Below, one piece after another: positions 36,751 through 61,586 of a stretch of 64,000 nucleotides of DNA. How positions within the stretch are numbered: the stretch's first letter is position 1; each line of letters begins with the position of its first letter. The stretch covers positions 1 through 64,000 of IMG/VR virus record IMGVR_UViG_3300025133_000030, one strand, 5' to 3'. Source of the DNA: a virus. A program made the translations under genes and the position numbers. Below the pieces are notes generated by a model. That model saw only the letters and a list, made by a program, of their open reading frames with translations. It had not been told where the DNA came from and did not search any database.

Positions 36751-38322
36751 ATGACTAAGGAACTTAACTCTGGCGCAGACCTGCGTCAATTAATTGTCGA
36801 TGGCGTCAATATTTTGGCGGACAATGTCGCTACAACTCTCGGCCCAAAGGGTCGTAATGTCATTATTCAAACCACTAATGGCAACCCAATCATTACCAAG
36901 GACGGAGTAACTGTTGCTCAGTTTTTGGACTTGGAAAACCCGTTCAAGAACGCGGCGGTGCAAGTAGTAAAGCAAGCTTCGGCACAGACAAATTCTGATG
37001 CAGGCGATGGCACTACAACTTCTACAGTTTTGTCTCGTGCACTGCTCTTAGAGGCCCAAGAACACCTCTCTAACGGAGCCTGCCCTGTAGATCTGAAGCG
37101 AGGCATGGATTTGGTTACATCTGCTGTTGTGGAGGATTTAAAGTCTAATTCTCGCCCGGTCATGAGCGAAGAAGATGTACGCCATATTGCAACAATTTCT
37201 GCAAATGGAGACGAAACCATAGGGACTTTAGTTTCGACAGCCGCAGACCGCGTCGGAAAGAACGGCTCAATTACAATTGAGGAGGCTAGATCTAATGACA
37301 CTACACTGGATTTAGTTGAGGGTTTTCGTCTAGACTCCGGGTATGCTGCTAACGCATTTATTACCGACGAGAGAAGAGGTGTGGTCAAATATGAGGATCC
37401 TATGTTCTTGATTACTGATAGTAAGATTGAAACAGTTGATCAGATTCTACCATCTCTTGAGATCGCAGCAAGAGAATCCAGACCGTTTATCATAGTTGCA
37501 GACGAAATCGAAGGCCAAGCCTTGGCTGCGCTAATTATGAACGCAGTACGGGGCACTATGAAAGTTGCAGCAGTCAAGTCTCCTCGTTATGGAGAGGAGA
37601 GGCGCGGTATCATGAGTGACCTAGCGTTGGCAACCGGGGCATCTTATATTACAAAAGAATCAGACCTAGACCTAAAGACAGTCAAAATGTCAGATTTTGG
37701 ATCTGCAAAATCAATTGAGATTGGCAAGAGAATGACAACAATTGTCGATGGTTCCTCGAACTCTGATCAACTTGACGAAAGAATTCAAACAATCAAAGCC
37801 CAGATCGAGCAAACTGAATCAATCCATGAGTGTGAGAGAATGCAGGAGCGAATCACTCGGTTAGCTTCAGGCGTCGCGGTGATCCGCGTCGGTGCCCCAA
37901 CCGAGATTGAAATGATCGAGAAGAAACACAGGATCGAAGACGCCCTAGAGGCAGTGAGGTCCGCTCAGATGGAGGGTATTGTCCCCGGAGGTGGTCTAGC
38001 TCTTTATAGAACAAGAGACCAGCTAAAAGTCTCAACTAAGAATGAGGATCAAGATAGGGGCGTCGAGATTGTCTTAAATTCTTTGAGCGCACCCATCGAA
38101 CAGATGGCAAAGAACGCTGGATTTGATGTGGCATCGACCTTGAGCCAAATCGATACAAGTGCAGATGATTTTGGGTTAGATTTTTCCACAGGAGATATTG
38201 TAAATATGCATGAAGCAGGCATCATAGATCCGGTGAAGGTAACCCGTTGCGCACTTCAGAATGCGGTGTCCGTAGTCGGAACTCTGATTACAACTGATTA
38301 TGCCATTATTCAAACGGAATGA
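36751..38322 (+). CDS. groEL: GroEL chaperonin
   Basis: 523 aa, against 548 in E. coli. Nucleotide-site motifs are conserved: TTLGPKGRNV, TKDGVTV (Asp51, equal to Asp52 of E. coli), DAGDGTTTSTV and EKKHRIEDALEAVRSA with the catalytic Asp equivalent to Asp398, then GIVPGGGLAL. The Gly/Met-rich C-terminal tail of bacterial GroEL is missing. It should form an ATP-driven folding chamber with the GroES-like protein at 21.8 kb, presumably for capsid or other difficult phage proteins. Confidence 0.95.
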   Translation: MTKELNSGADLRQLIVDGVNILADNVATTLGPKGRNVIIQTTNGNPIITKDGVTVAQFLDLENPFKNAAVQVVKQASAQTNSDAGDGTTTSTVLSRALLLEAQEHLSNGACPVDLKRGMDLVTSAVVEDLKSNSRPVMSEEDVRHIATISANGDETIGTLVSTAADRVGKNGSITIEEARSNDTTLDLVEGFRLDSGYAANAFITDERRGVVKYEDPMFLITDSKIETVDQILPSLEIAARESRPFIIVADEIEGQALAALIMNAVRGTMKVAAVKSPRYGEERRGIMSDLALATGASYITKESDLDLKTVKMSDFGSAKSIEIGKRMTTIVDGSSNSDQLDERIQTIKAQIEQTESIHECERMQERITRLASGVAVIRVGAPTEIEMIEKKHRIEDALEAVRSAQMEGIVPGGGLALYRTRDQLKVSTKNEDQDRGVEIVLNSLSAPIEQMAKNAGFDVASTLSQIDTSADDFGLDFSTGDIVNMHEAGIIDPVKVTRCALQNAVSVVGTLITTDYAIIQTE

Positions 38323-44303: not shown

Positions 44304-44377
<74 letters not shown>

Positions 44378-44385
44378 CTAACAAA

Positions 44386-44568
44386 ATGCTAGAACAAGAA
44401 AGGGTACTGCTGGGAGATCTCGTTGAGCATCGCGATTACGTCACAGTCCTTATAGGGGTTGTGACTGAGGTACACCCAAAGATAAGCAAGGCCACAGTTT
44501 ATTGGAGGAACTTCGACGAGCACACCACCTTAGATATTAAAAAATTGATTGTCTTAGCAAGAAAATGA
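44386..44568 (+). CDS. GDLV-family mini-protein
   Basis: 60 aa. After MLEQERV, the family core LLGDLVEHRDYVTVLIGVVTEV is followed by ATVYWRNFDEH and a closing strand. It lies 8 nt after tRNA-Arg, and its stop overlaps the next start by 4 nt (ATGA). A scattered relative of the array at 59-64 kb, without the LEVISESR end. Confidence 0.6.
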   Translation: MLEQERVLLGDLVEHRDYVTVLIGVVTEVHPKISKATVYWRNFDEHTTLDIKKLIVLARK

Positions 44569-44783
44569 AATCACTAGATTTACATAATTATAGTCATGAC
44601 GAAGCTGAAGATATGGTAATGACGTTCCTTAATTGGACTGAGGTACCTTGCAAGATAATCACAGGTAACTCAAAAAAGATGAAAACAATAGTAAGAAGTG
44701 TGGTATACTATTATGGTCTACATTGCTATGACGAGAGTGCTTTTAATTGTGGCGCTTTAATCGTTGTGGAGGGTGAGTGGTAG
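44565..44783 (+). CDS. Smr-domain-like small protein
   Basis: 72 aa. LDLHNYSHDEAEDMVMTFL and then CKIITGNSKKMKTIVRSVV follow the Smr (MutS2 C-terminal) nuclease-fold pattern of an opening LDLH motif and a later I-x-T/H-G-x-x strand-loop. It is shorter than most Smr domains (about 80 aa). Binding to branched DNA or RNA is possible. Confidence 0.55.
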   Translation: MKSLDLHNYSHDEAEDMVMTFLNWTEVPCKIITGNSKKMKTIVRSVVYYYGLHCYDESAFNCGALIVVEGEW

Positions 44784-44786
44784 CAG

Positions 44787-44855
44787 ATGAGTCATTTGAT
44801 TTCGATAGTGATATTGTCCATGTTGGTAGCAATAATTGTTTATACCAATACGTGA
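44787..44855 (+). CDS. Putative 22-aa membrane microprotein
   Basis: ATG 3 nt after the upstream stop; the whole product is one hydrophobic helix (LISIVILSMLVAIIVY). No clear ribosome-binding site. Listed because several such microproteins occur in this region; it could be noise. Confidence 0.3.
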   Translation: MSHLISIVILSMLVAIIVYTNT

Positions 44856-44862
44856 GGCCTAG

Positions 44863-44936
44863 GCCCGAATAGCTCAGTTGGCCAGAGCGCCGCTCTTGTA
44901 AAGCGGACGTCGTCGGTTCGAATCCGACTTCGGGCT
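44863..44936 (+). tRNA. tRNA-Thr (TGT)
   Basis: Acceptor GCCCGAA/TTCGGGC, D-arm GCTC/GAGC, loop CTTGTAA giving anticodon TGT, T-arm GTCGG/CCGAC. No encoded CCA. Reads ACA. Confidence 0.95.
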
Positions 44937-44954
44937 CTTATTTTAAGGTTGTTT

Positions 44955-45497
44955 ATGTTTCATATGATTATAACTGTGTTGATTCTCTTGATGAGCCCCT
45001 TGGGTTTGGAGTGGTATGACACACACGTCAAGGCCCCAAAGATAGATAGTTATACTCGTATGACAGGAACCCCGCTCGCAGGCCTGATTGTTTATTTGGG
45101 CGATGATCTCGACGAGATGGAAGCGGAACTACAGCTAGAATATCAATCAGGCAAGCTCTCAACTGCGCTTCTAATTTTGGGACCAGCAGGTATAGATCGC
45201 TTTAATTGTGCAATAAAATATAAGAAGGTCGTCTCATCTCTAAGTGAGAAATATGGGATGTACTCTCGACGTGAGACGATTAGGGATCCTATCATAAATG
45301 ATCTGGTATCGGATGGTGGCTTTTGTAAGCAGGTGTCCATTGGACTTTATGAAGCTAGGACTTTCTGGCGAATAAAACAATTTAGAATTGTTGCGGATCT
45401 GGTTGGAGATAATTCTGAATTTTACATACATGTGTACTATTCTTTGATCTCGACAGGCGAAAAAATAAGAAAAAAGAAAATCTTAAAGAGATTATAG
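44955..45497 (+). CDS. Secreted or membrane-anchored protein, function unknown
   Basis: 180 aa from ATG 44955, which has TAAGG 6 nt upstream (TTG 44949 is less well placed). An N-terminal hydrophobic segment (MIITVLILLMSPLGLEW) could be a signal anchor. The remainder is charged, with DDLDEMEAELQLEYQSG and three Cys. It precedes the endolysin-like gene and may belong to a lysis cassette. Confidence 0.5.
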   Translation: MFHMIITVLILLMSPLGLEWYDTHVKAPKIDSYTRMTGTPLAGLIVYLGDDLDEMEAELQLEYQSGKLSTALLILGPAGIDRFNCAIKYKKVVSSLSEKYGMYSRRETIRDPIINDLVSDGGFCKQVSIGLYEARTFWRIKQFRIVADLVGDNSEFYIHVYYSLISTGEKIRKKKILKRL

Positions 45498-45510
45498 CAG
45501 AGGTAAAATA

Positions 45511-45909
45511 ATGAAACTAGAGAATAATTTTAGCTTATCAGAGTTTAGATGTAAAGACGGCACAGACGTCCCAGAAGAGTATATGGATAATGTTATAAAG
45601 CTGGCCAAGAATCTACAAGCTTTGAGAGAGCACTTGAACCGTCCAATAAAGGTTATTAGTGGTTATCGTTCTCCGAGATACAATAGCCGCATCGGTGGAG
45701 CAAGAAAGAGCCAACACATGACAGCTTCAGCCGCAGACATTCAAGTACCCGGCCTGATGCCCTCTTATGTAAAGAAGGCAATAGTAGAGCTAATCAAGTC
45801 TGGAAAGATGGACTCAGGCGGCCTCGGCTTATATACAAGTTTTACTCATTACGATATTCGAGGCCGAAACGCACGATGGTTCGGCAGGGGAACCAAAGAC
45901 GATAACTAG
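45511..45909 (+). CDS. M15-family peptidase, endolysin-like
   Basis: 132 aa. SGYRSPRYNSRIGGARKSQH, AADIQVPG and SFTHYDIRG give the zinc ligands His69, Asp76 and His113 of the M15 peptidase family. Such enzymes cut peptide stems in peptidoglycan, and the short single-domain form is typical of phage endolysins. No signal peptide is present, so a holin would be needed for export. Confidence 0.82.
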   Translation: MKLENNFSLSEFRCKDGTDVPEEYMDNVIKLAKNLQALREHLNRPIKVISGYRSPRYNSRIGGARKSQHMTASAADIQVPGLMPSYVKKAIVELIKSGKMDSGGLGLYTSFTHYDIRGRNARWFGRGTKDDN

Positions 45910-45917
45910 ACTGCAAA

Positions 45918-46005
45918 GGAGAGGTGGTCGAGCTGGTTTAAGGCACCGGTCTTGAAAACCGGCGTGGAGGTAACTTCACCGTGGGTTCGAATCCCACCCT
46001 CTCCG
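45918..46005 (+). tRNA. tRNA-Ser (TGA)
   Basis: Class II tRNA: acceptor GGAGAGG/CCTCTCC, anticodon stem CCGGT/ACCGG with loop CTTGAAA, long variable arm, T-arm GTGGG/CCCAC. No encoded CCA. Reads TCA. Confidence 0.95.
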
Positions 46006-46028
46006 CAATTTAATTTATCATTTTATTC

Positions 46029-46057
46029 TTGACAATCGCATAAAAATATGAGACTAT
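46029..46057 (+). promoter_or_regulatory. tRNA-Ile promoter
   Basis: TTGACA (46029-46034), a 17-bp spacer ending in TGA and GACTAT (46052-46057), 11 nt before tRNA-Ile. Confidence 0.55.
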
Positions 46058-46068
46058 AAGGAACATAA

Positions 46069-46142
46069 CCGCTACGGCTGGCTGGTAGTCAGGAGGCGTC
46101 TTATAAGCGTCTTAAAGCAAGGTTCAATTCCTTGGTAGCGGA
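46069..46142 (+). tRNA. tRNA-Ile (TAT), atypical
   Basis: Acceptor CCGCTAC/GTAGCGG, so the first pair is C1-G72. The anticodon loop CTTATAA gives TAT, T-arm CAAGG/CCTTG. The D-arm (CTG/CAG) and the anticodon stem with G-T pairs are weak. It would read ATA, which most bacteria decode with a lysidine-modified CAT tRNA. Confidence 0.8.
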
Positions 46143-46158
46143 CTAAAAAAGGAGATAA

Positions 46159-46491
46159 ATGAAAGCATTAGTTCTAACATTAGCGATTGCACTTGGCGGC
46201 TGTTCTTATGCGACAGTCAACACATACAAGACGCACAAGAGAAAGTGTACGACGCATTATGTCGCGCCTGCTGTCGACACATTGTTGGTAGTACCCCCCC
46301 TTTTTGTTTTGGGAGTTTTACCAGCGGCCATGGCCGGATGTTGCGGTGGGGGGAATGGTTCACCGTCAGCAACATCCGGCGATATTATACCCATCGCGCT
46401 CGGCGCAGCTGCCATGGCAATCGTCTCCGGATATTCAGCTACTCACGGATACAGGGAAGTTGCTGAATGCCGGGAGAGAAAAGGAAAATGA
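46159..46491 (+). CDS. Small lipoprotein A (tandem pair)
   Basis: 110 aa. The signal peptide ends in ALGGC, a lipobox. After SYATVNTYKTHKRKC comes a hydrophobic middle with two possible membrane segments and a CCGGGNG insert. It is paralogous to the following gene over the first 45 residues. The role is unknown; host-type small lipoproteins with this start occur in Gram-negative bacteria, so an envelope location is likely. Confidence 0.65.
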   Translation: MKALVLTLAIALGGCSYATVNTYKTHKRKCTTHYVAPAVDTLLVVPPLFVLGVLPAAMAGCCGGGNGSPSATSGDIIPIALGAAAMAIVSGYSATHGYREVAECRERKGK

Positions 46492-46820
46492 AAACATTAA
46501 TTTTAACACTAGCAATTATACTTGGGTGTGGTTGTTCACTGGCAACAGTCAATACACACAAGACGCACAAGAGAAAATGTACCGAAAGTGAAGTAGCTCC
46601 GGTGATTGACTTCGCCCTGATGGTCACAGCGATAGGTTTGAGATTGCACTATAATCACGAGAACAAAATCGAAGAAGGATCACTCTTCGACCCATTCGCA
46701 GCCACTCGCCATGTAATGATGAACGGCGCATTTTATAGTGCTGCTGTCATAGCAGGAGGTTCAGGTGTTTATGGAGTATATCACACTGGAAACTGCCAAA
46801 GTAAGTTGGATAGAAGATAA
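46488..46820 (+). CDS. Small lipoprotein B (tandem pair)
   Basis: 110 aa, ATG 46488 with AAGGAA upstream and a 4-nt overlap (ATGA) with gene A. It shares TLAI-LG-C, ATVNT-KTHKRKC and a following VAPVID segment with gene A, so the two arose by tandem duplication and then diverged in the second half. The signal peptide ends in GCGC. Confidence 0.62.
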   Translation: MKTLILTLAIILGCGCSLATVNTHKTHKRKCTESEVAPVIDFALMVTAIGLRLHYNHENKIEEGSLFDPFAATRHVMMNGAFYSAAVIAGGSGVYGVYHTGNCQSKLDRR

Positions 46821-46846
46821 GATTATTCCCATTGAAGAATTATTAG

Positions 46847-47023
46847 ATGAATAACGTATATAAAATTATAGAAGAAGTGCTGTCAGAACAATCAAGTTTA
46901 AACGCAAACTTATCGTCATCGGCAGCGAGAAAACAAATAGCAGAACAAGTTTGCCTAAGGATAATAGGAAAGTTTTATGTTTTGCCATATTCTGACTGTA
47001 AGGAGAGTCAATCAGATGAGTAA
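46847..47023 (+). CDS. Small protein, function unknown
   Basis: 58 aa. Helical, ending with a Cys-containing segment. It overlaps the next start by 8 nt. A 27-codon frame (46771-46854) between this gene and lipoprotein B is possible but weak. Confidence 0.4.
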   Translation: MNNVYKIIEEVLSEQSSLNANLSSSAARKQIAEQVCLRIIGKFYVLPYSDCKESQSDE

Positions 47024-47279
47024 ACACTTTAATGAAAAGGACCTAGTCAACTCAATAGCTATTGCCATGCTGCTTGCGTTAGTCGGTATTGGTTTGTTTG
47101 TTGCGTCGGCAACGGTGGAATCCAATGCACTGACCACTAATGTCGCAAAATTAGATGCTTCACATAGAGGCAAATTACTCAGAGAAGTTAGGCTTTTAAC
47201 TCTAGAACTTAAGATGGTCAAGAGCGATGTGGACGAAGTCAGAGAAGCTCTAAAAGAGATGGAAAAAAAAGAGAAGTGA
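47016..47279 (+). CDS. Small membrane-anchored coiled-coil protein
   Basis: 87 aa from ATG 47016, chosen because AAGGAGAG lies at the right distance. A hydrophobic segment (IAIAMLLALVGIGLFVASATV) is followed by a coiled-coil (LLREVRLLTLELKMVKSDVD). It overlaps the next gene by 4 nt. A spanin-like or phage anchor role is possible. Confidence 0.55.
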   Translation: MSKHFNEKDLVNSIAIAMLLALVGIGLFVASATVESNALTTNVAKLDASHRGKLLREVRLLTLELKMVKSDVDEVREALKEMEKKEK

Positions 47280-47713
47280 GCTACAGAGACTCATCAAACC
47301 AATCCGGCGATATGTCTCAACTAGCAGCGGCAATGGAAATCGCTCGCCATGGCTGGGTTGTCAACACGCCTCTCAGCAGAGATTCGATATATGATCTGGT
47401 AGTTGAATTGGGCCACCGAAACTTTCAAACCGTACAAGTCAAGACAATGTGCGGCAACAGCATTGCTAGGGTTGTTGATAGGTCGGGAGAGGTAGTGAGC
47501 AAGAACGGGAAGACGAGAAACTCTCTTGACTATGCGGAGCACGGCATCGACTGGCTGGTTGGGGTTCACAAAGAGACTGGTGAATGTTATTTTTACGATT
47601 TAGAAAACTATTCTCAAATACCCTCTAAGAGTTTTAGCGTGAGAAAGTATCCACCAAGTGAGTTTCCCTTCAACGAAGTGTCGAATCGGCATAGCAAAAA
47701 GGGAAATACGTGA
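47276..47713 (+). CDS. PD-(D/E)XK nuclease-like protein
   Basis: 145 aa, GTG start. GDMSQLAAAMEIARHGW, then DSIYDLVVELG and TVQVKT give the order E/Q-x-x-A, D, then Q-V-K of PD-(D/E)XK enzymes such as Holliday-junction resolvases and intron-type nucleases. The first acidic residue is replaced by Gln, so activity is uncertain. It overlaps both neighbours by 4 nt. Confidence 0.6.
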   Translation: MSYRDSSNQSGDMSQLAAAMEIARHGWVVNTPLSRDSIYDLVVELGHRNFQTVQVKTMCGNSIARVVDRSGEVVSKNGKTRNSLDYAEHGIDWLVGVHKETGECYFYDLENYSQIPSKSFSVRKYPPSEFPFNEVSNRHSKKGNT

Positions 47714-48267
47714 AAAACCCTGAGCTTAAGATTTTCACCGGACCCATGTTTGGAGGCAAGACAACAAAATTGTTGGCAGCTCTTGAACGTTATCACTATC
47801 AGCATGAAGAGGTAAAGTTATTTAAGCCACGTATGGATGGTCGCTACTCCACAGAAAAGGTCATGACCCACAGCGGACTCAAACAGGATGCAATCTTGGT
47901 TAGTTCTGGCGATGAGATAATAGAGCACACCGGCAACACAAGAATAGTCGCAGTTGACGAGGTCTTTATGATAGAAGGAGCAGCAAGCGCGTTGCTGAAA
48001 TTGTTTTCAGAGGGTAAGACAGTGCTGGTCTCAACTTTGCAGCTATCATCGGAACCGAAGCCTCTACCAGAGATTAGAGACTTGTTGCCTTACGCGACAC
48101 AGATAGAGATATGTCCGGCGGTATGTTCGATGTGTAGCGAGGATGCACATTACACCAGAAGAAAAACAGATAGTTCGACCCAGATTGAGGTCGGCGGCAA
48201 AGAAGAATATGAGCCCCTATGCTATGCTCATTACAATAAGATTGTGGGGATATGGCGGAACAGGTAG
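47710..48267 (+). CDS. tdk: Thymidine kinase
   Basis: 185 aa, GTG start. Walker A GPMFGGKTT near residue 11, the VAVDEVFM Walker B, and a C-terminal zinc site with CSMCSEDAHYTRR and a later Cys match the TK1 family. It phosphorylates thymidine to dTMP. The last 22 nt, including the stop, lie inside the tRNA-Leu gene. Confidence 0.92.
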   Translation: MKNPELKIFTGPMFGGKTTKLLAALERYHYQHEEVKLFKPRMDGRYSTEKVMTHSGLKQDAILVSSGDEIIEHTGNTRIVAVDEVFMIEGAASALLKLFSEGKTVLVSTLQLSSEPKPLPEIRDLLPYATQIEICPAVCSMCSEDAHYTRRKTDSSTQIEVGGKEEYEPLCYAHYNKIVGIWRNR

Positions 48268-48330
48268 ACGCAGGAGACTTAAAATCTCCCGACTTCGGTC
48301 GTGTGGGTTCGATTCCCTCTATCCCTACCA
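48246..48330 (+). tRNA. tRNA-Leu (TAA), overlapping the thymidine kinase gene
   Basis: Acceptor GGGGATA/TATCCCT, D-arm GCG/CGC, anticodon stem GGAGA/TCTCC with loop CTTAAAA, a variable arm CGACTTCGGTCG and a T-arm with one mismatch. CCA is encoded (48328-48330), unlike the other tRNAs here. Bases 48246-48267 also code for the end of thymidine kinase. Confidence 0.93.
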
Positions 48331-50774: not shown

Positions 50775-51202
50775 AGATAGCATCTATATCGTATTTAGCA
50801 GGGGATGTCCGCACATTCGTGAAAGCCTCGCGTACAGGGCGATTCTCGCTAATTGTCCCAACCGGCACTCGTAGAGAGTTTAGGGGATCTAGGATTGTTT
50901 TATTGAAAGCAAAATCTTTCATCACCCACGAGTTGATCAAGGATAACGACCCAGTGTTGACTCTCTCAACTGGAGAAAAGCTAAGGGTATACCTAAGCGG
51001 CGATTCTACAGCAGGGGTTGTTCGGGCACTTGGAGTAGCAGAGCTTCACGATGAAGAGAATGACAACACAGGCACCGATGCCGATGATCGATACAAACCA
51101 AAACCCAAAGGTCAAGAAAATTCGGATAACTTTTCTAAGATTTTAGATGATTATGATTTTCCGTTCACTCCAGACTTTGATTTTGGAGACGGAAGCAACT
51201 AG
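50771..51202 (+). CDS. Small protein, function unknown
   Basis: 143 aa, ATGA overlap with the upstream gene. A beta-rich N-terminal half is followed by an acidic and Pro/Lys-rich tail (residues about 90-143) that is probably disordered. Confidence 0.5.
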   Translation: MKIASISYLAGDVRTFVKASRTGRFSLIVPTGTRREFRGSRIVLLKAKSFITHELIKDNDPVLTLSTGEKLRVYLSGDSTAGVVRALGVAELHDEENDNTGTDADDRYKPKPKGQENSDNFSKILDDYDFPFTPDFDFGDGSN

Positions 51203-51212
51203 AGAGGAAAAT

Positions 51213-51332
51213 ATGTCTCAATTTTATTACAACATCGTAGAAGCGGGAAAAGTTAGCTTTAGTACATGGCTTGGACTGGCTGGGCTCTTCGGCCTGACCG
51301 GTCTGCTTGCCTGCTGCAAGAGGAAAAAATGA
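51213..51332 (+). CDS. Single-membrane-segment microprotein
   Basis: 39 aa from ATG 51213, with AGAGAGG upstream. Segment WLGLAGLFGLTGLLACC ends in Cys-Cys-Lys-Arg. Overlaps the next gene by 4 nt (ATGA). Confidence 0.55.
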   Translation: MSQFYYNIVEAGKVSFSTWLGLAGLFGLTGLLACCKRKK

Positions 51333-53721: not shown

Positions 53722-54801
53722 GTGGCTATCGATTTTAAGACCTTTGTAGAAGTTGTCAAGTATGTTACCGACGTGCATAAGCCCGTCATTATTCGAGGAC
53801 GCCACGGCGTTGGTAAGTCAACTGTTGTTTATCAATACGCTGACAAGATTGGTCTTCCAGTTGTAGAACGCAGGGCTTCCCAGATGACTGAAGGCGACCT
53901 TGTTGGTCTTCCGATTATTGAAGCGGAAAGCACTAGGTTCAATCCGCCAGACTGGTTCAAGCGCGCCTGCGACGAGCCTGTTATCTTGTTTCTCGACGAA
54001 GTTGATCGTGCGACTCTTGAGGTTCGCCAAGGTATCTTCGAGTTGACTGACAGTCGCAAGCTGAACGGACATGTCCTCCACCCTGACACATTGATTTTTG
54101 CGGCAGTTAATGGTGGCGAACATGGTGAGCAGTACCAAGTCGGAGAGATGGACCCAGCAGAATTGGATCGCTGGACTGTGTTTGATATTGAGCCATCCGT
54201 TGAGGATTGGCTGAACTGGGCTTCCGACAACGAGATCAGCACAGAAGTTTGGGACTTTATCAATCAAAATCGCAATCATCTTGAGCATAACGACGACTTC
54301 GAGCCTAACAAGGTATACCCATCTCGCCGTTCATGGGAGAGATTGAATCAGTGTTTGGCCAGTGCTTCTCTCTTGGATGAGGGCAGTCCTACTTTGTTCA
54401 ACCTCACCGCTGCATTTTGTGGTTTCGAGGCTGCCGTCGCGTTCAATGATTTTGTCACAAACTACGACAGGCAAGTAACCCCAGAGGACATCCTTTTGGA
54501 TGGTGACTTTAGTAAGGTTGGTGACTTCAAGATTAACGACCACACTGCAATGATTGATAAGTTTGAGGCCGCGAATTCCTTCAAGGATGCTTTGGACCAA
54601 GACCAGATTGACAACCTTGCAAAGTATTTCTTGATGCTTCCTAGTGAAGTGGCAATGAAGCTCTGGACAGTGCTTGGTTCTGGCGCTCTAGACAACACAA
54701 TCAAGCTTCATCAGTCGGTCGTCAAGGTCGATGGCAAGAAGCGATCAGTAGCAGACTACCTAGTGCAAATCCTTTCATCTGACGAAGGCTCTGAAAACTA
54801 A
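53722..54801 (+). CDS. MoxR-type AAA+ ATPase
   Basis: 359 aa, GTG start with AAGGAG upstream. Walker A GRHGVGKS (residues 26-33), ILFLDEVDR (Walker B, Asp92-Glu93), FAAVNGG with sensor 1 and AELDRW match the MoxR family. These ATPases work as chaperones that insert cofactors or remodel a VWA-domain partner. The partner is the next gene, 11 nt downstream. In phages the role is unknown. Confidence 0.85.
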   Translation: MAIDFKTFVEVVKYVTDVHKPVIIRGRHGVGKSTVVYQYADKIGLPVVERRASQMTEGDLVGLPIIEAESTRFNPPDWFKRACDEPVILFLDEVDRATLEVRQGIFELTDSRKLNGHVLHPDTLIFAAVNGGEHGEQYQVGEMDPAELDRWTVFDIEPSVEDWLNWASDNEISTEVWDFINQNRNHLEHNDDFEPNKVYPSRRSWERLNQCLASASLLDEGSPTLFNLTAAFCGFEAAVAFNDFVTNYDRQVTPEDILLDGDFSKVGDFKINDHTAMIDKFEAANSFKDALDQDQIDNLAKYFLMLPSEVAMKLWTVLGSGALDNTIKLHQSVVKVDGKKRSVADYLVQILSSDEGSEN

Positions 54802-54812
54802 AGGTGCTTACA

Positions 54813-56081
54813 ATGTCCGATTCAGCGAATCAGAAACGGCCTTTCGATCTCAATATTCACATGGCTCGACTACTAATGGACGAGCCATTCTTTGCAGCTA
54901 TCAGCCGCAGGATCGATAAGAACTCAAGCAACGCCATTCCTACTGCTGGTGTAAGAGTTAATCCTCACACTGCTCAGTTTGAAATGTTGTATAATCCGAG
55001 CTTTTTTGAGAAGTTGACAGATGCCGAACGCCGCGACGTTCTTAAGCATGAATTTTATCATGTTGTGTTTATGCACGTGACAGACCGTATGCCTAATGGC
55101 GCTATGACGCGCCAGTGGAACATCGCAACTGACCTCGCCATCAATAGTCATCTTCATAATCTACCTGAAGGTGGTTTAATTCCGGGCAAGGAGGGTACTC
55201 CTTTCGAGGACTTGCCTCGTGGTATGTCTGCTGAGTGGTATTTGGCAAACCTGCCCGATTTGAGCAAGAACAAGGGAGACGACAAGGATGAAAATAAGAA
55301 CGAAGGTGAATCTTCCGATGGCCCCGGAAGTGGAACTGGAGGCGAAGGTCAGTCTCAACCGCAAAGCGGTGAAGGCGATGGCTATGGCGACATTGAAACT
55401 CTTGACGATCACAGCGGTTGGGGCGATGTATCGGATGAGGTCAAAGAGATCGCAAAAGAGCGACTGAAGGAAATTGTCAAGCAGGCGTCTGAAGACTGCG
55501 CTCGTGGGAATTCATGGGGCAGCGTACCTCAGCAATGTCGTGAAAAGATTATGAAGGGGTTGCAGTCAAAGATTGACTGGCGTAGTGTGCTGCGGTATTT
55601 CATTAAGACATCCCAGAGGGCAAACAAGTCAAGCTCCATCAAGAGAATCAATCGTAGGTATGCCTACATCCATCCCGGCAGAAAGACCAATCGAGTCGCG
55701 AAGGTTGCAATCAGTATTGATCAGTCAGGTTCTGTTGACAATGGAATGCTTGCTCAATTCTTTGCTGAGTTGAATAAGCTTTCTGAGTTGGCCGAGTTTA
55801 CTGTGATTCCTTTTGACACCGAAGTTGCAGAGGATAAGGTATATGTATGGAAGAAGGGCGAAAAGCGCGTATGGGAGAGAGTGCTTTGCGGAGGCACTGA
55901 CTTCGACGCTCCCACTGAGTATGTTAATAAGCAAGGTGACTTTGATGGTCATATTATTTTGACTGATCTTTGTGCGCCGAAGCCAAAGTCGAGTAAGTGT
56001 CAGCGCATGTGGATGACTACTCCACAGTATGCCTCTCGTCCTTACTTTGCGACAAAAGAAAAGATCGTGGCCATCGAGTAG
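54813..56081 (+). CDS. Metallopeptidase-like VWA protein, MoxR partner
   Basis: 422 aa from ATG 54813 (AAAGG 8 nt upstream). Residues 79-83 are HEFYH, a zinc-peptidase motif. After an acidic linker (about 150-200) there is a helical region, and a VWA domain begins with ISIDQSGSVDNG and has VIPFDTEV and HIILTDLCAPK. This matches DUF2201-type proteins with a putative peptidase and a VWA domain. The MoxR-VWA pair forms a two-gene module, complete here. Confidence 0.8.
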   Translation: MSDSANQKRPFDLNIHMARLLMDEPFFAAISRRIDKNSSNAIPTAGVRVNPHTAQFEMLYNPSFFEKLTDAERRDVLKHEFYHVVFMHVTDRMPNGAMTRQWNIATDLAINSHLHNLPEGGLIPGKEGTPFEDLPRGMSAEWYLANLPDLSKNKGDDKDENKNEGESSDGPGSGTGGEGQSQPQSGEGDGYGDIETLDDHSGWGDVSDEVKEIAKERLKEIVKQASEDCARGNSWGSVPQQCREKIMKGLQSKIDWRSVLRYFIKTSQRANKSSSIKRINRRYAYIHPGRKTNRVAKVAISIDQSGSVDNGMLAQFFAELNKLSELAEFTVIPFDTEVAEDKVYVWKKGEKRVWERVLCGGTDFDAPTEYVNKQGDFDGHIILTDLCAPKPKSSKCQRMWMTTPQYASRPYFATKEKIVAIE

Positions 56082-56200: not shown

Positions 56201-56308
56201 GTTGATACAGGATAAAATCGAAAGTAAATTAGAGTAGGTTAGCGTTTCCCGTGAGTGAAGCAAGAGGTGACTCGCCTGCCCACATTATTTATTAGGAGAT
56301 ATGCGAAA

Positions 56309-56497
56309 ATGTATAACATCGGAGATCTAGTAGTTACGAATTCATGTAGCGAACTAGGAGTCGTGACCGCCCACGTTGAAGGCTTGAAAAGGTATGTAGT
56401 ATACTGGTTCATAAGCAAGAACTATAACTCTGTGAACGAAAAGCACCTAAAATTTTACAAAGCTGAGTATAATTACTCATGTGTTAAACATAGGTGA
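56309..56497 (+). CDS. GDLV-family mini-protein
   Basis: 62 aa from ATG 56309, AGGAG upstream. MYNIGDLVVTNSCSELGVV followed by RYVVYWFISKN matches the family. The tail is KHR, and its last 17 nt carry the GTG start and NIGD codons of the next gene, the same arrangement as in the 59-64 kb array. Confidence 0.68.
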   Translation: MYNIGDLVVTNSCSELGVVTAHVEGLKRYVVYWFISKNYNSVNEKHLKFYKAEYNYSCVKHR

Positions 56498-56684
56498 CCT
56501 AGTAGCGTGTTATGTACTTAATTCGTCCCTTGAGGATGAAGCAATGCTTCAGTACGGCCTAGTACTGGAGCGCAATGAGCATCTTGAAGATGTTTTAGTG
56601 TTGGATAATTACGGGGAGATAAGATGGTGGCCAAACAAGAGGTGGAGACTTCTAAAGAAGAAGCCGAATCACCGCTGGTTCTAG
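56481..56684 (+). CDS. GDLV-family mini-protein
   Basis: 67 aa, GTG start. MLNIGDLVACYVLNSSLED, then QYGLVLERNE and a final RWRLLKKK. The GGTGA of its NIGD codons supplies the TGA stop of the upstream gene. Confidence 0.68.
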   Translation: MLNIGDLVACYVLNSSLEDEAMLQYGLVLERNEHLEDVLVLDNYGEIRWWPNKRWRLLKKKPNHRWF

Positions 56685-56923
56685 GAGATGTAATCAGGAT
56701 AATCGAAACATATGACGTGTTTGGATTCGATGTGGATGGCATGATAGCAATGGTGTTGAAGCCAACGAGCAGTATGGACCCGCTCAGGCACATGGTGTAT
56801 GTCCCAGAGATAGATGACTATTGCGAACCGAAAGAGAGTATGATCGAGCGACTCATTGGAGAGACAATGACGCACCCACACGGAAGAGTAGCTGTGATGG
56901 GCAACTTCGCTGATCAAGAATAA
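56624..56923 (+). CDS. GDLV-family-like protein, divergent
   Basis: 99 aa, ATG with GGGGAG upstream; overlaps the preceding gene by 61 nt. LVLGDVIRIIETYDVFG begins at about residue 19 after a charged leader. The remainder (MIAMVLKPTSS, HMVYVPEIDD) keeps the strand order, but the C-terminal motif is absent. Confidence 0.55.
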   Translation: MVAKQEVETSKEEAESPLVLGDVIRIIETYDVFGFDVDGMIAMVLKPTSSMDPLRHMVYVPEIDDYCEPKESMIERLIGETMTHPHGRVAVMGNFADQE

Positions 56924-56933
56924 TATTATTTAC

Positions 56934-56962
56934 TTGCAATTTTAGTGTGACCGTGGTACAGT
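56934..56962 (+). promoter_or_regulatory. Putative promoter
   Basis: TTGCAA (56934-56939), a 17-bp spacer ending in TGG and TACAGT (56957-56962), then AAAGGAG and a GTG start. Confidence 0.4.
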
Positions 56963-56993
56963 TATATGCAACGTATACTTAAAGGAGTATCTA

Positions 56994-57158
56994 GTGGTCA
57001 TATATCACCTAGCATATAGAATTAATAACGGAGATAGGCAACATATCTACGCGATTAAGAAGATTTGCGAAAAGAAAAAGAAAAAACTTACTGAAGAACA
57101 CGGTGAAAACATCAAATTTTATCGTATGAATGCCTGCCATAGCGGGTACAGAGCTTAA
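56994..57158 (+). CDS. Small basic protein
   Basis: 54 aa, GTG start with AAAGGAG 6 nt upstream and a promoter 32 nt before. Lys/Tyr-rich (KKICEKKKKKLTEEHG), two Cys. Unknown role. Confidence 0.6.
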   Translation: MVIYHLAYRINNGDRQHIYAIKKICEKKKKKLTEEHGENIKFYRMNACHSGYRA

Positions 57159-57172
57159 AAGAAGGAGAAAAA

Positions 57173-57469
57173 ATGTCAATTTTTGAAGAATATGACGGCG
57201 ACATCAGAGAAAACCTAAGATCCAGAGCGGAAGTCATCATTGAGAGTATCGCTGAGTCTTATGAAAATGGATCCATTGATGATCCCAAAGCAAATCACAC
57301 CATGATGAGTTTGTTTGCATTAGCGTGTGAGAATAAGATCGAAGGAGAGATGGCCGAACCCGGTGTCAAGTGGACTCTAACAGCAGCATACTCAAAGAAG
57401 TTAGAAGAAGAGCTTATGAATTGGTCCGCAATTGATGGATCATCCAAGGTGGTAAAAGGCCCGTGGTAA
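57173..57469 (+). CDS. Small helical acidic protein
   Basis: 98 aa with GAAGGAG upstream. Acidic and helical, with no motif. Overlaps the next gene by 7 nt. Confidence 0.5.
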   Translation: MSIFEEYDGDIRENLRSRAEVIIESIAESYENGSIDDPKANHTMMSLFALACENKIEGEMAEPGVKWTLTAAYSKKLEEELMNWSAIDGSSKVVKGPW

Positions 57470-57756
57470 CAATTACCACATCGAGTTCATTTGCACTGGC
57501 GAACATCGGTGGTAAGAGATATGTTGTTCCGCAATGGATAGAAGTACCGCTAGGTACGACTCTTGCAGACGTGAAGGTGGTTCGTCCAGATCCACCAGTT
57601 AATGCTGTGACCATTGTAAAAGAAGAGTATATAACAGGGTCGAAGGGTGATGAATACCTAGTGAAGGTTCTTAGTGACGGCTCTGGTACGTGCGAATGTT
57701 GGGGATACCGACGACGAAAAGACTGCAAGCATCTAAAAGCCTTGCGAAATACATAA
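57463..57756 (+). CDS. SWIM-type zinc-finger protein
   Basis: 97 aa, GTG start. The C-terminal CECWGYRRRKDCKHL fits the SWIM pattern C-x-C-x(n)-C-x-H, a zinc-binding module used for DNA or protein binding. The N-terminal half is beta-rich (KRYVVPQWIEVPLGTTL). Ends 14 nt before the next gene. Confidence 0.65.
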   Translation: MVTITTSSSFALANIGGKRYVVPQWIEVPLGTTLADVKVVRPDPPVNAVTIVKEEYITGSKGDEYLVKVLSDGSGTCECWGYRRRKDCKHLKALRNT

Positions 57757-57770
57757 ATAAAGGAAAAGAA

Positions 57771-59081
57771 ATGTTAAAGAATATCATTATTGTCTTGATA
57801 ACAACAGTTACGTATGCTATGGCAGAAGCGCCATTTGAATGCGACGATAACTTTGGTGAGTGCGGCACACCGGAGATGTCTGGCGGAGGAAACGCCGGCG
57901 GTGGGTCTATGCTCATCAATAATTCAGATTTAGGCGATACATATCAACGCGCCGACGATTATGACGACGACGGAGTTGAAGATCCGCATGACAACTGTCC
58001 GCGTCTGCGAAATCTTGATCAGTTTGATACAGACGGTGACGGAGTAGGAGATGCTTGCGATAATTGTATGCACTTGGCGAATGATGATCAATTTGATTCA
58101 GATTCAGACGACTTCGGAGATGCCTGTGATGTGGACATTGACGGCGACGGAAACAACAACGACGTAGACAGTTGCCCTCTTGTTCCAAATGGCTCTGATC
58201 CTGATTTAGACTCGGATGGGATCGGTGATGCCTGCGATGAAGACATCGACGGCGACGGCATTAACAACCTCGACGATAATTGCCCTATGATTCCCGGCGA
58301 AATCGTAGAGGCTCCGGATGATTCGACGGAGTGTTTTCCTGATGTCGACCGCGACGGATCACCGGACCCAACGGTGGATAACTGCATTGGAATTTACAAC
58401 CCTTTACAGTACGACGCTGACGCCGACGGACTGGGCACTCCATGCGATCCAGACGATGATGCAGACATGGTACCGGATAACATCGACAATTGCACAGGTG
58501 TATTTAATCCTCACCAGAGAGACCTCGACCGCGATGGTTTAGGAGACGACGGCTGTGATGATATATATTGCTTTGTGGTGTACGGCGATAAAGCAAACTG
58601 TCTAGACCCGGCAGCTCCGCTTCAGGCTTATTCGCCCTCGCTGATCGCATCAGTAGGTGAGCCTGTCCCTCTTCGTCTGTTCATGAATAGGACAAATCAG
58701 TCAACCAGATATCAGTGGACCTTGGTTTCTCGACCGCGCACTTCCGCTGCTGTAATAAGAAGCGGATCTGGTCACGTTAACACATCAGATCCTTATGAAT
58801 ATCAATACGACAACTCTCGTCCGATGATCACCCCTGACGTTAGTGGGGAGTATGTTATTAGGGTTGATGTCGTCACTGTCTTCGAGGACTCGGTCTCTCG
58901 CGAAATTCAAACCCGCGCTACTTTCACTAGCCGAGTGGAGGTTGCAGGATATCACATTCCGAAATTGCGTCACCAATCCGGATGTAATGTTAACGTCGCG
59001 ACCACTGACCACCCATGGGTTTTCTATTGTTTTATTTTGGTGGCTCTATTCAGAAAAAGATTGACACGAACAGGGAAATAG
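57771..59081 (+). CDS. Secreted thrombospondin type-3 repeat protein with MYXO-CTERM-like tail
   Basis: 436 aa from ATG 57771 (AAGGA upstream). A signal peptide ends in TYAMA. Residues about 60-265 hold calcium-binding type-3 repeats such as DTDGDGVGDACDNC and DIDGDGINNLDDNC. A beta-sandwich of PKD type follows (VGEPVPLRL, YQWTLVSRP, SGEYVIRVDV). The end has SGC, then a hydrophobic WVFYCFILVALF segment and a basic RKRLTR tail, the tripartite form of MYXO-CTERM sorting signals of Myxococcota. It may be displayed on the host surface during infection. Confidence 0.8.
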   Translation: MLKNIIIVLITTVTYAMAEAPFECDDNFGECGTPEMSGGGNAGGGSMLINNSDLGDTYQRADDYDDDGVEDPHDNCPRLRNLDQFDTDGDGVGDACDNCMHLANDDQFDSDSDDFGDACDVDIDGDGNNNDVDSCPLVPNGSDPDLDSDGIGDACDEDIDGDGINNLDDNCPMIPGEIVEAPDDSTECFPDVDRDGSPDPTVDNCIGIYNPLQYDADADGLGTPCDPDDDADMVPDNIDNCTGVFNPHQRDLDRDGLGDDGCDDIYCFVVYGDKANCLDPAAPLQAYSPSLIASVGEPVPLRLFMNRTNQSTRYQWTLVSRPRTSAAVIRSGSGHVNTSDPYEYQYDNSRPMITPDVSGEYVIRVDVVTVFEDSVSREIQTRATFTSRVEVAGYHIPKLRHQSGCNVNVATTDHPWVFYCFILVALFRKRLTRTGK

Positions 59082-59089
59082 TGTAATAT
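59061..59089 (+). promoter_or_regulatory. Promoter at the head of mini-gene array A
   Basis: TTGACA (59061-59066) and TAATAT (59084-59089) with a 17-bp spacer, overlapping the stop of the upstream gene. It could drive the whole first array block. Confidence 0.55.
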
Positions 59090-59131
59090 GTAAGAACAGT
59101 GGGAGCTTTTTGAAAGAACAGATGAAAATTG

Positions 59132-59347
59132 GTGATTAAAGTAGGAGATCTGGTTAGGTATACCAACCTTGCCTACCCGGATGAAGGTATCGGCCTCGTT
59201 TTGGAATACGAGAAGATCCCCAACAAACTTGAGTTTGAGTTTAAGGTCCGCTGGACAGATCATTCCAGTTCAAACCGAGACTGGTACAGGGAAGGTGAAC
59301 TGGAGTTGATCGTTGAACGTCGGAGATTTAGTAAGCTATCTGGATAG
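59132..59347 (+). CDS. GDLV mini-gene A1
   Basis: 71 aa from GTG 59132 (M)IKVGDLVRYTNLAYPDEG. The preceding ATG 59122 reads MKIGD then stops, as if a former start had been cut off. At the other end the next gene has GGAGAT instead of GGTGAT, so the stop is lost and the frame reads on to VERRRFSKLSG, making a 35-nt overlap. Otherwise the strands GIGLVLEYEK and FKVRWTDH follow the family. Confidence 0.7.
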   Translation: MIKVGDLVRYTNLAYPDEGIGLVLEYEKIPNKLEFEFKVRWTDHSSSNRDWYREGELELIVERRRFSKLSG

Positions 59348-59498
59348 GTATTGCGGTATTGTGGTGGCTATCGATGAGCCCAACCCACACCACGCCTCCG
59401 CCGCCACAGGAGTTGTTGTCATTTGGGTAGATACCGGCTTCAGATCGTGGGAGTTCACGAATCAGTTGGAGGTAGTTAGTGAATATAAAAAAGGGTGA
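59313..59498 (+). CDS. GDLV mini-gene A2
   Basis: 61 aa, TTG start, NVGDLVSYLDRYCGIVV, then VVVIWVDTGFRSWEF and LEVVSEYKKG at the end. Closely related to the gene at 63413 in the second block. GGAGG lies 6 nt before the following GTG. Confidence 0.75.
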   Translation: MNVGDLVSYLDRYCGIVVAIDEPNPHHASAATGVVVIWVDTGFRSWEFTNQLEVVSEYKKG

Positions 59499-59670
59499 TC
59501 TAGTCACCAACAAGCTCCACATAGGCCTGCCGAAAACGCATGGCATCGTGACAAGAACTCCTGAGGAAACAAACAATGGAGACTACGAAGTATGGTATAC
59601 TACAGGCGTATATACAAGAAAAATATTTTGTGCACCGAGACAATTGGTGTTAATAAGTGAAAGTCGGTGA
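59479..59670 (+). CDS. GDLV mini-gene A3
   Basis: 63 aa, GTG start. MNIKKGDLVTNKLHIG, then HGIVTRTPEE, YEVWYTTG and a LVLISESR end. It overlaps A2 by 20 nt because of two extra Lys codons in the junction. Confidence 0.75.
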   Translation: MNIKKGDLVTNKLHIGLPKTHGIVTRTPEETNNGDYEVWYTTGVYTRKIFCAPRQLVLISESR

Positions 59671-59836
59671 TCTGATTGAGTGGAATCTTCATACGCTACG
59701 CCCACGCGGTATCATAATCGGCCTTAATGGGGATTTCGCGGAGCTTTTTTGGTTTCAAAACACGCGACTTTCCCTATCTGGTAAAATTTCATATGTTGGA
59801 AAACGAGAATTGAAGGTAATCAGTGAAAGTCGGTGA
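59657..59836 (+). CDS. GDLV mini-gene A4
   Basis: 59 aa, GTG start, 14-nt overlaps on both sides. MKVGDLIEWNLHTLRPRG, then IIIGLNGDFAELFWF and ELKVISESR. The ribosome-binding site within A3 is weak (GGTG). Confidence 0.78.
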   Translation: MKVGDLIEWNLHTLRPRGIIIGLNGDFAELFWFQNTRLSLSGKISYVGKRELKVISESR

Positions 59837-60020
59837 CTTGATAGTGTATCGTAATGTTATGTACCCTTCCCGGCAACACTTAGAGCGTCCCGCAATCGTG
59901 GTCAAGCAGCGGGTCTCTCACATAAAGGGCAAGAAAAACTTCCGCATTTACTATCCATGCCACAATGAATGGTTAAATTGTTGGGAAGATGAATTTGAGG
60001 TCGTCAGTGAAAGTCGGTGA
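59823..60020 (+). CDS. GDLV mini-gene A5
   Basis: 65 aa, GTG start, 14-nt overlaps on both sides. MKVGDLIVYRNVMYPS, RPAIVVKQRV, FRIYYPCHNEW and FEVVSESR. GAAGG within A4 serves as its ribosome-binding site. Confidence 0.8.
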   Translation: MKVGDLIVYRNVMYPSRQHLERPAIVVKQRVSHIKGKKNFRIYYPCHNEWLNCWEDEFEVVSESR

Positions 60021-60231
60021 TTTGGTGAAGTACACTCCGTTTCCGCACGAAGAGCTTCATAAATCTGGAATGACAGGTCTGGTTACATCTGAGCCTTATG
60101 TTGACAGAGGCATTGGGGACATGCATTTAATTGACATCATGTGGACAAGGGATCGAGGTACGGGATATCCCGCAGGATGCATATGTCAGGAATACGTGGA
60201 TGAGCTGGAGGTAGTAAATGAGTCTAAATAG
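60007..60231 (+). CDS. GDLV mini-gene A6
   Basis: 74 aa, GTG start, 14-nt overlaps. MKVGDLVKYTPFPHEELH, GLVTSEPYVD, IDIMWTRDRG and ELEVVNESK, the tail being slightly diverged with TAG instead of TGA as the stop. Confidence 0.8.
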   Translation: MKVGDLVKYTPFPHEELHKSGMTGLVTSEPYVDRGIGDMHLIDIMWTRDRGTGYPAGCICQEYVDELEVVNESK

Positions 60232-61494: not shown

Positions 61495-61567
61495 GGAGCA
61501 TTGGCGCAATTGGTAGCGCATCGGACTTTTAATCCGCTGGTTCCGAGTTCGAGTCTCGGATGCTCCA
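61495..61567 (+). tRNA. tRNA-Lys (TTT)
   Basis: Acceptor GGAGCAT/ATGCTCC, D-arm GCGC/GCGC, anticodon arm TCGGA/TCCGC with loop CTTTTAA (one mismatched pair), T-arm CCGAG/CTCGG. No encoded CCA. Separate from the five tRNAs at 44-48 kb. Confidence 0.95.
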
Positions 61568-61586
61568 CTAAGATTGGATGGGAGAT

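Follow-up and report, generated by a model that had tools for sequence, protein, structure and literature searches.

An MtsC homologue encoded by a myovirus-like phage and a family of shortened phage forms

MYXO-CTERM proteins carry a C-terminal tail with an invariant cysteine, a helix and a basic end; in TraA this tail is cut by the myxosortase MrtX, and type II secretion then delivers TraA to the cell surface (PMC11980579). Sorting by MYXO-CTERM and myxosortase has been described only in Myxococcota (PMC11980579). Among the proteins named after this tail is MtsC, defined by the NCBIfam model NF047638 as "cell-cell cohesion MYXO-CTERM protein MtsC", a label from which its putative role in cohesion is taken. 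Our literature search found no paper joining the name MtsC with Myxococcus or myxobacteria, and none joining Myxococcota, phage, surface protein and superinfection exclusion. From other phages, a small surface protein is familiar in the form of T5 Llp, a phage-encoded superinfection-exclusion lipoprotein with an N-terminal lipobox. Here we describe a phage-encoded MtsC together with a family of shortened forms, termed mini-MtsC.

The phage mtsC gene and its surroundings

The window analysed (64,000 nt) comprises bases 1–64000 of a 153,803-bp IMG/VR virus record. Since this record encodes a tail sheath, DNA polymerase, UvsX, DnaB, GroEL and a baseplate wedge protein, we regard it as a myovirus-like phage. 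Its GroEL (523 aa) lies at window positions 36751–38322, and six tRNA genes (Arg, Thr, Ser, Ile, Leu, Lys) are located at 44304–48330 and 61495–61568, with a tRNA-Met beyond the window (in L048). The mtsC reading frame occupies 57771–59081 on the plus strand, which also holds the parts of the protein and the two upstream genes given below, and encodes 436 aa plus stop. NF047638 matches residues 6–429 with 444.8 bits, compared to a curated equivalog cut-off of 350, and the match spans profile positions 8–427 of 428. Another phage contig (L045), nearly identical to this one, encodes the same protein; it is a separate record because one neighbour gene is 99% identical.

The protein begins with a signal peptide recognized by inspection (residues 1–18, MLKNIIIVLITTVTYAMA, followed by E; 57771–57824), which aligns with the hydrophobic N-termini of its homologues. 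A conserved Gly-rich motif, FECDDNFGECGTPEMSGGG...DLGDTYQRADDYDDDG..., follows at residues 22–78 (57834–58004), with a mean column identity of 83% across 18 phage and cellular sequences. Calcium-binding thrombospondin type 3 (TSP3) repeats extend over about residues 63–265 (57957–58565; Pfam PF02412, 96.7 bits compared to a gathering score of 25, five stretches, E 5.7e-28), and COMP and thrombospondins are among the PDB profile matches of these repeats. In the AlphaFold model, an Ig-like beta-sandwich domain covers about residues 268–393 (58572–58949; block pLDDT mostly 80–96); its Foldseek matches to Ig-like folds are non-specific and include phage head proteins. The MYXO-CTERM-like tail SGCNVNVATTDHPWVFYCFILVALFRKRLTRTGK (58983–59078) comprises Cys405, a predicted helix at residues 415–434 and the basic end RKRLTR. 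Thus, the signal peptide, the calcium-binding repeats and the Cys-hydrophobic-basic tail that the initial annotation had read from a phage-encoded protein were all borne out, and their order would fit a displayed surface protein. Given the full-length NF047638 match and a tail cysteine that is invariant in the alignment of phage and cellular homologues, the feature goes beyond chance.

Upstream of mtsC lie genes for a MoxR-like AAA ATPase (53722–54801; phrog_1297, ATPase) and a VWA/metallopeptidase-like protein (54804–56081; phrog_1314), for which the PHROG label "HNH endonuclease" looks doubtful. The ATPase gene was found near most viral mtsC genes by tblastn, and the VWA-like gene is likewise present in most viral mtsC loci. 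A functional link of this pair to mtsC is weakened, however, because the VWA-like gene also occurs in 101 other phage records and because mtsC sits on its opposite side in two loci (L162 and L164). Several small ORFs of 61–80 aa at 56255–60231 start with an N[IV]GDLV-like motif and resemble tandem paralogues flanking mtsC.

The putative sorting tail, cellular relatives and putative host group

The designation MYXO-CTERM-like, which the initial annotation had given to the tail, holds by one measure and fails by another. Neither the phage record nor six other virus records matched the TIGR03901 profile (at least 20 bits needed) at E ≤ 1, an outcome that the initial annotation had set against its reading, whereas the MtsC profile, which reaches almost to the C-terminus, does match. 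As all seven virus records lack a TIGR03901 match, we call the tail MYXO-CTERM-like by its layout (invariant cysteine, then a hydrophobic helix, then basic residues) and by MtsC homology, and not by profile. The nearest cellular MtsC tail (G164) scores 18.7 bits with TIGR03901 and is thus below the 20-bit cut-off too, and the genomes of the two closest cellular relatives contain 15 and 42 MYXO-CTERM matches at E ≤ 1. Compared to the described system of TraA and MrtX (PMC11980579), phage MtsC shares the N-terminal signal peptide and the C-terminal arrangement of cysteine, helix and basic end; it differs in that the described system belongs to Myxococcota, whereas the phage tails lack a TIGR03901 match and their processing is putative. 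Filtering the phage genome crudely for further tails of the Cys-helix-basic type returned three short ORFs, none of them convincing. A small ORF at about 51147–51332 of the window (L045:1377–1562) ends in GLAGLFGLTGLLACCKRKK, a hydrophobic stretch with CC followed by a basic end.

Full-length cellular homologues share 41–56% identity with phage MtsC (blastp). Those identified in a genome scan are MAGs, and all of those with a named phylum are assigned to Myxococcota. The MtsC cut-off was passed in 16 of 189 genomes of the phylum that holds a Sandaracinus MAG. A 57-column profile of the N-terminal motif matched 22 of 379 genomes in this phylum and 31 of 195 in the phylum of genome G245. The same profile found the motif in none of 249 Pseudomonadota genomes (Alcanivorax phylum) and none of 248 Bacteroidota genomes (Flavilitoribacter phylum), its matches in the Sandaracinus and G245 phyla serving as the positive control for this 497-genome negative.

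The initial annotation had pointed to Myxococcota and relatives as the host group, and homologues in Myxococcota genomes were indeed found, the nearest ones within the Sandaracinus phylum. This attribution stands only in part, as a second phylum, that of G245, contains full-length homologues as well, and its assignment is uncertain: at NCBI, the G245 record is listed as Bdellovibrionota and the G005 record of the same set as Myxococcota. We also count the GC content of the phage contigs (26–45%) against a Myxococcota host. The phage carries a tmRNA (L048:640–946, record 84640–84946; Rfam RF00023, 119 bits), and the start of its tag peptide ANDNIEIFEDFALAA resembles ANDNVELALAA and ANDDVELALAA of several MtsC-bearing genomes, a likeness that may lend weak support to an MtsC-bearing host group. 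Overall, judged by the cellular relatives of its MtsC, the phage has Myxococcota or a closely related group as putative host. The initial annotation had recognized neither the protein as an MtsC homologue that nests among cellular MtsC sequences nor the wide occurrence of a shortened family in phages.

Shortened forms and the origin of the phage gene

A scan with the VWA-like neighbour protein identified 80 viral loci, among which a profile built from the MtsC alignment revealed full-length copies in two further phages. When 49 records sharing this neighbour were searched whole, an MtsC match was present in only these 2 and absent in 47. A second scan, using an alignment of the phage copies, yielded 33 viral loci. 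Full-length copies account for the near-twin of the window phage and for two additional types, one of which was seen in two contigs; the remaining 29 loci encode a short form. This mini-MtsC measures roughly 205–233 aa, or about 194–233 aa with the starts as picked (one is cut by a contig end), and the 22 distinct sequences left after merging identical N-terminal parts form one clade (100/100). It keeps the signal peptide, the N-terminal motif, a few TSP3 repeats and the tail cysteine, which is invariant among 15 aligned short forms within an unconserved linker; in some of them the C-terminal end is poor in basic residues or lacks them. The score of a short form with NF047638 is 162.5 bits, below the cut-off of 350, and AlphaFold produced a poor model (mean pLDDT 44.4). 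Across seven short-form pairs, dN/dS ranged from 0.07 to 0.38 (Nei-Gojobori), and the short forms are under purifying selection. Neither the full nor the short form has a match in INPHARED, and PHROGs gave none; the mini-MtsC group is widespread in phages and present in neither of the phage reference collections searched (PHROGs, INPHARED).

Relative to cellular MtsC (NF047638), the full-length phage protein agrees in length, domain order and tail and passes the equivalog cut-off, but it is phage-encoded, sits on a long branch and has a tail below the MYXO-CTERM profile cut-off; the mini forms additionally lack the Ig-like domain and half of the repeats. A tree built from 41 full-length proteins groups the three phage copies in a single clade (99/96) that falls within cellular MtsC, with the cellular proteins L073 and L206, both from the phylum holding Sandaracinus, as sisters (96/92). 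The branch of the window copy amounts to 0.99 changes per column, which argues for a capture long ago rather than a recent acquisition. In a tree of the N-terminal parts, a single clade of full and short phage forms is neither rejected nor shown (p-AU 0.26). We consider it probable that the phage gene is an old capture of mtsC retained in one phage lineage, with the shortened form in a second, AT-rich phage group.

Proposed display on the infected cell and its possible purposes

The occurrence of an own MtsC copy in a large phage and of a shortened form in many phages suggests that these phages redecorate the surface of the infected cell. Since the Ig-like domain is gone from the short forms but their anchor and N-terminal motif remain, the displayed N-terminal part appears to be what selection keeps. 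Our preferred reading, to which we assign a probability of roughly 60%, is that the phage protein is a mimic derived from a captured mtsC, sorted onto the infected cell by the MYXO-CTERM system of the host, most likely for receptor masking or superinfection exclusion. For phage MtsC, we infer export, sorting, surface display and function as follows: the protein would probably be exported by Sec during infection, its tail cysteine may be lipidated and the tail cut by a host myxosortase, and type II secretion would move the product to the outer surface. There, the N-terminal motif on a calcium-stiffened TSP3 stalk could mimic host MtsC and occupy MtsC partners. The gain would most likely be receptor masking or superinfection exclusion; a change in cell-cell cohesion comes a close second. 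By its features alone, such a protein resembles T5 Llp, which is also phage-encoded, small and probably lipid-anchored at the outer membrane, and for which receptor masking has been proposed; it differs from Llp, with its N-terminal lipobox, in its C-terminal cysteine tail and its origin from a host protein.

The same display could instead serve a change in cohesion: full-length copies would hold infected cells to their neighbours, or short forms would compete with host MtsC and loosen cells so that progeny reach new hosts. The family name speaks for this purpose, as does the retention of the N-terminal motif with loss of the Ig-like domain in the short forms, as might be seen in a competitor; yet the cohesion role is a database label, and the binding region and partner are putative. 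We regard this as a possible but less likely purpose than masking or exclusion. That the protein belongs to the virion, for instance as a fibre that binds calcium or as a decoration of the head, and adheres to host MtsC partners, appears improbable. Phage particles often carry Ig-like domains, and head proteins appear among the fold matches, but a signal peptide and a hydrophobic Cys tail suit a membrane-anchored protein; moreover, the short forms keep just these parts while dropping the Ig-like domain, and mtsC lies outside the tail-gene block. Host DNA caught in assembly or a recent, functionless pick-up is the least credible explanation: the gene does resemble a cellular one, and 47 of 49 records with the VWA-like neighbour have no MtsC match, but several separate viral contigs carry mtsC beside phage neighbours, the phage copies group by themselves on a long branch and short-form dN/dS is low.

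If host-sorted display of a captured MtsC is correct, these phages would have taken over and shortened a surface protein of social bacteria, and they would rely on a sorting route for which only Myxococcota have been described (PMC11980579). The gene would then provide a sequence marker for phages of Myxococcota, the N-terminal motif would be singled out as the working part of MtsC, and bacterial cohesion under phage control would become directly testable. A broader proposal, to which we give slightly less than even odds, is that widespread phages use a miniaturised, host-derived and MYXO-CTERM-sorted cohesion protein to govern the contacts of infected Myxococcota-like cells or the access to their receptors; within reach of the searches made here, this would be the first use of MYXO-CTERM sorting by a phage.

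Elsewhere in the record, glycosyltransferases, a UDP-GlcNAc 2-epimerase and four NAD-dependent epimerases/dehydratases are clustered at about 94.1–110.7 kb (L048, L049), an arrangement compatible with surface modification without being proof of it. A PurZ/PurA-like protein (L047:14354–15352, record 78354–79352; phrog_1211, "2-aminooxy adenylosuccinate synthetase") raises the possibility of DNA with a modified adenine. Finally, two giant ORFs lie in the tail region, one encoding 3836 aa (record 114969–126479) and the other 3350 aa (record 131048–141100).
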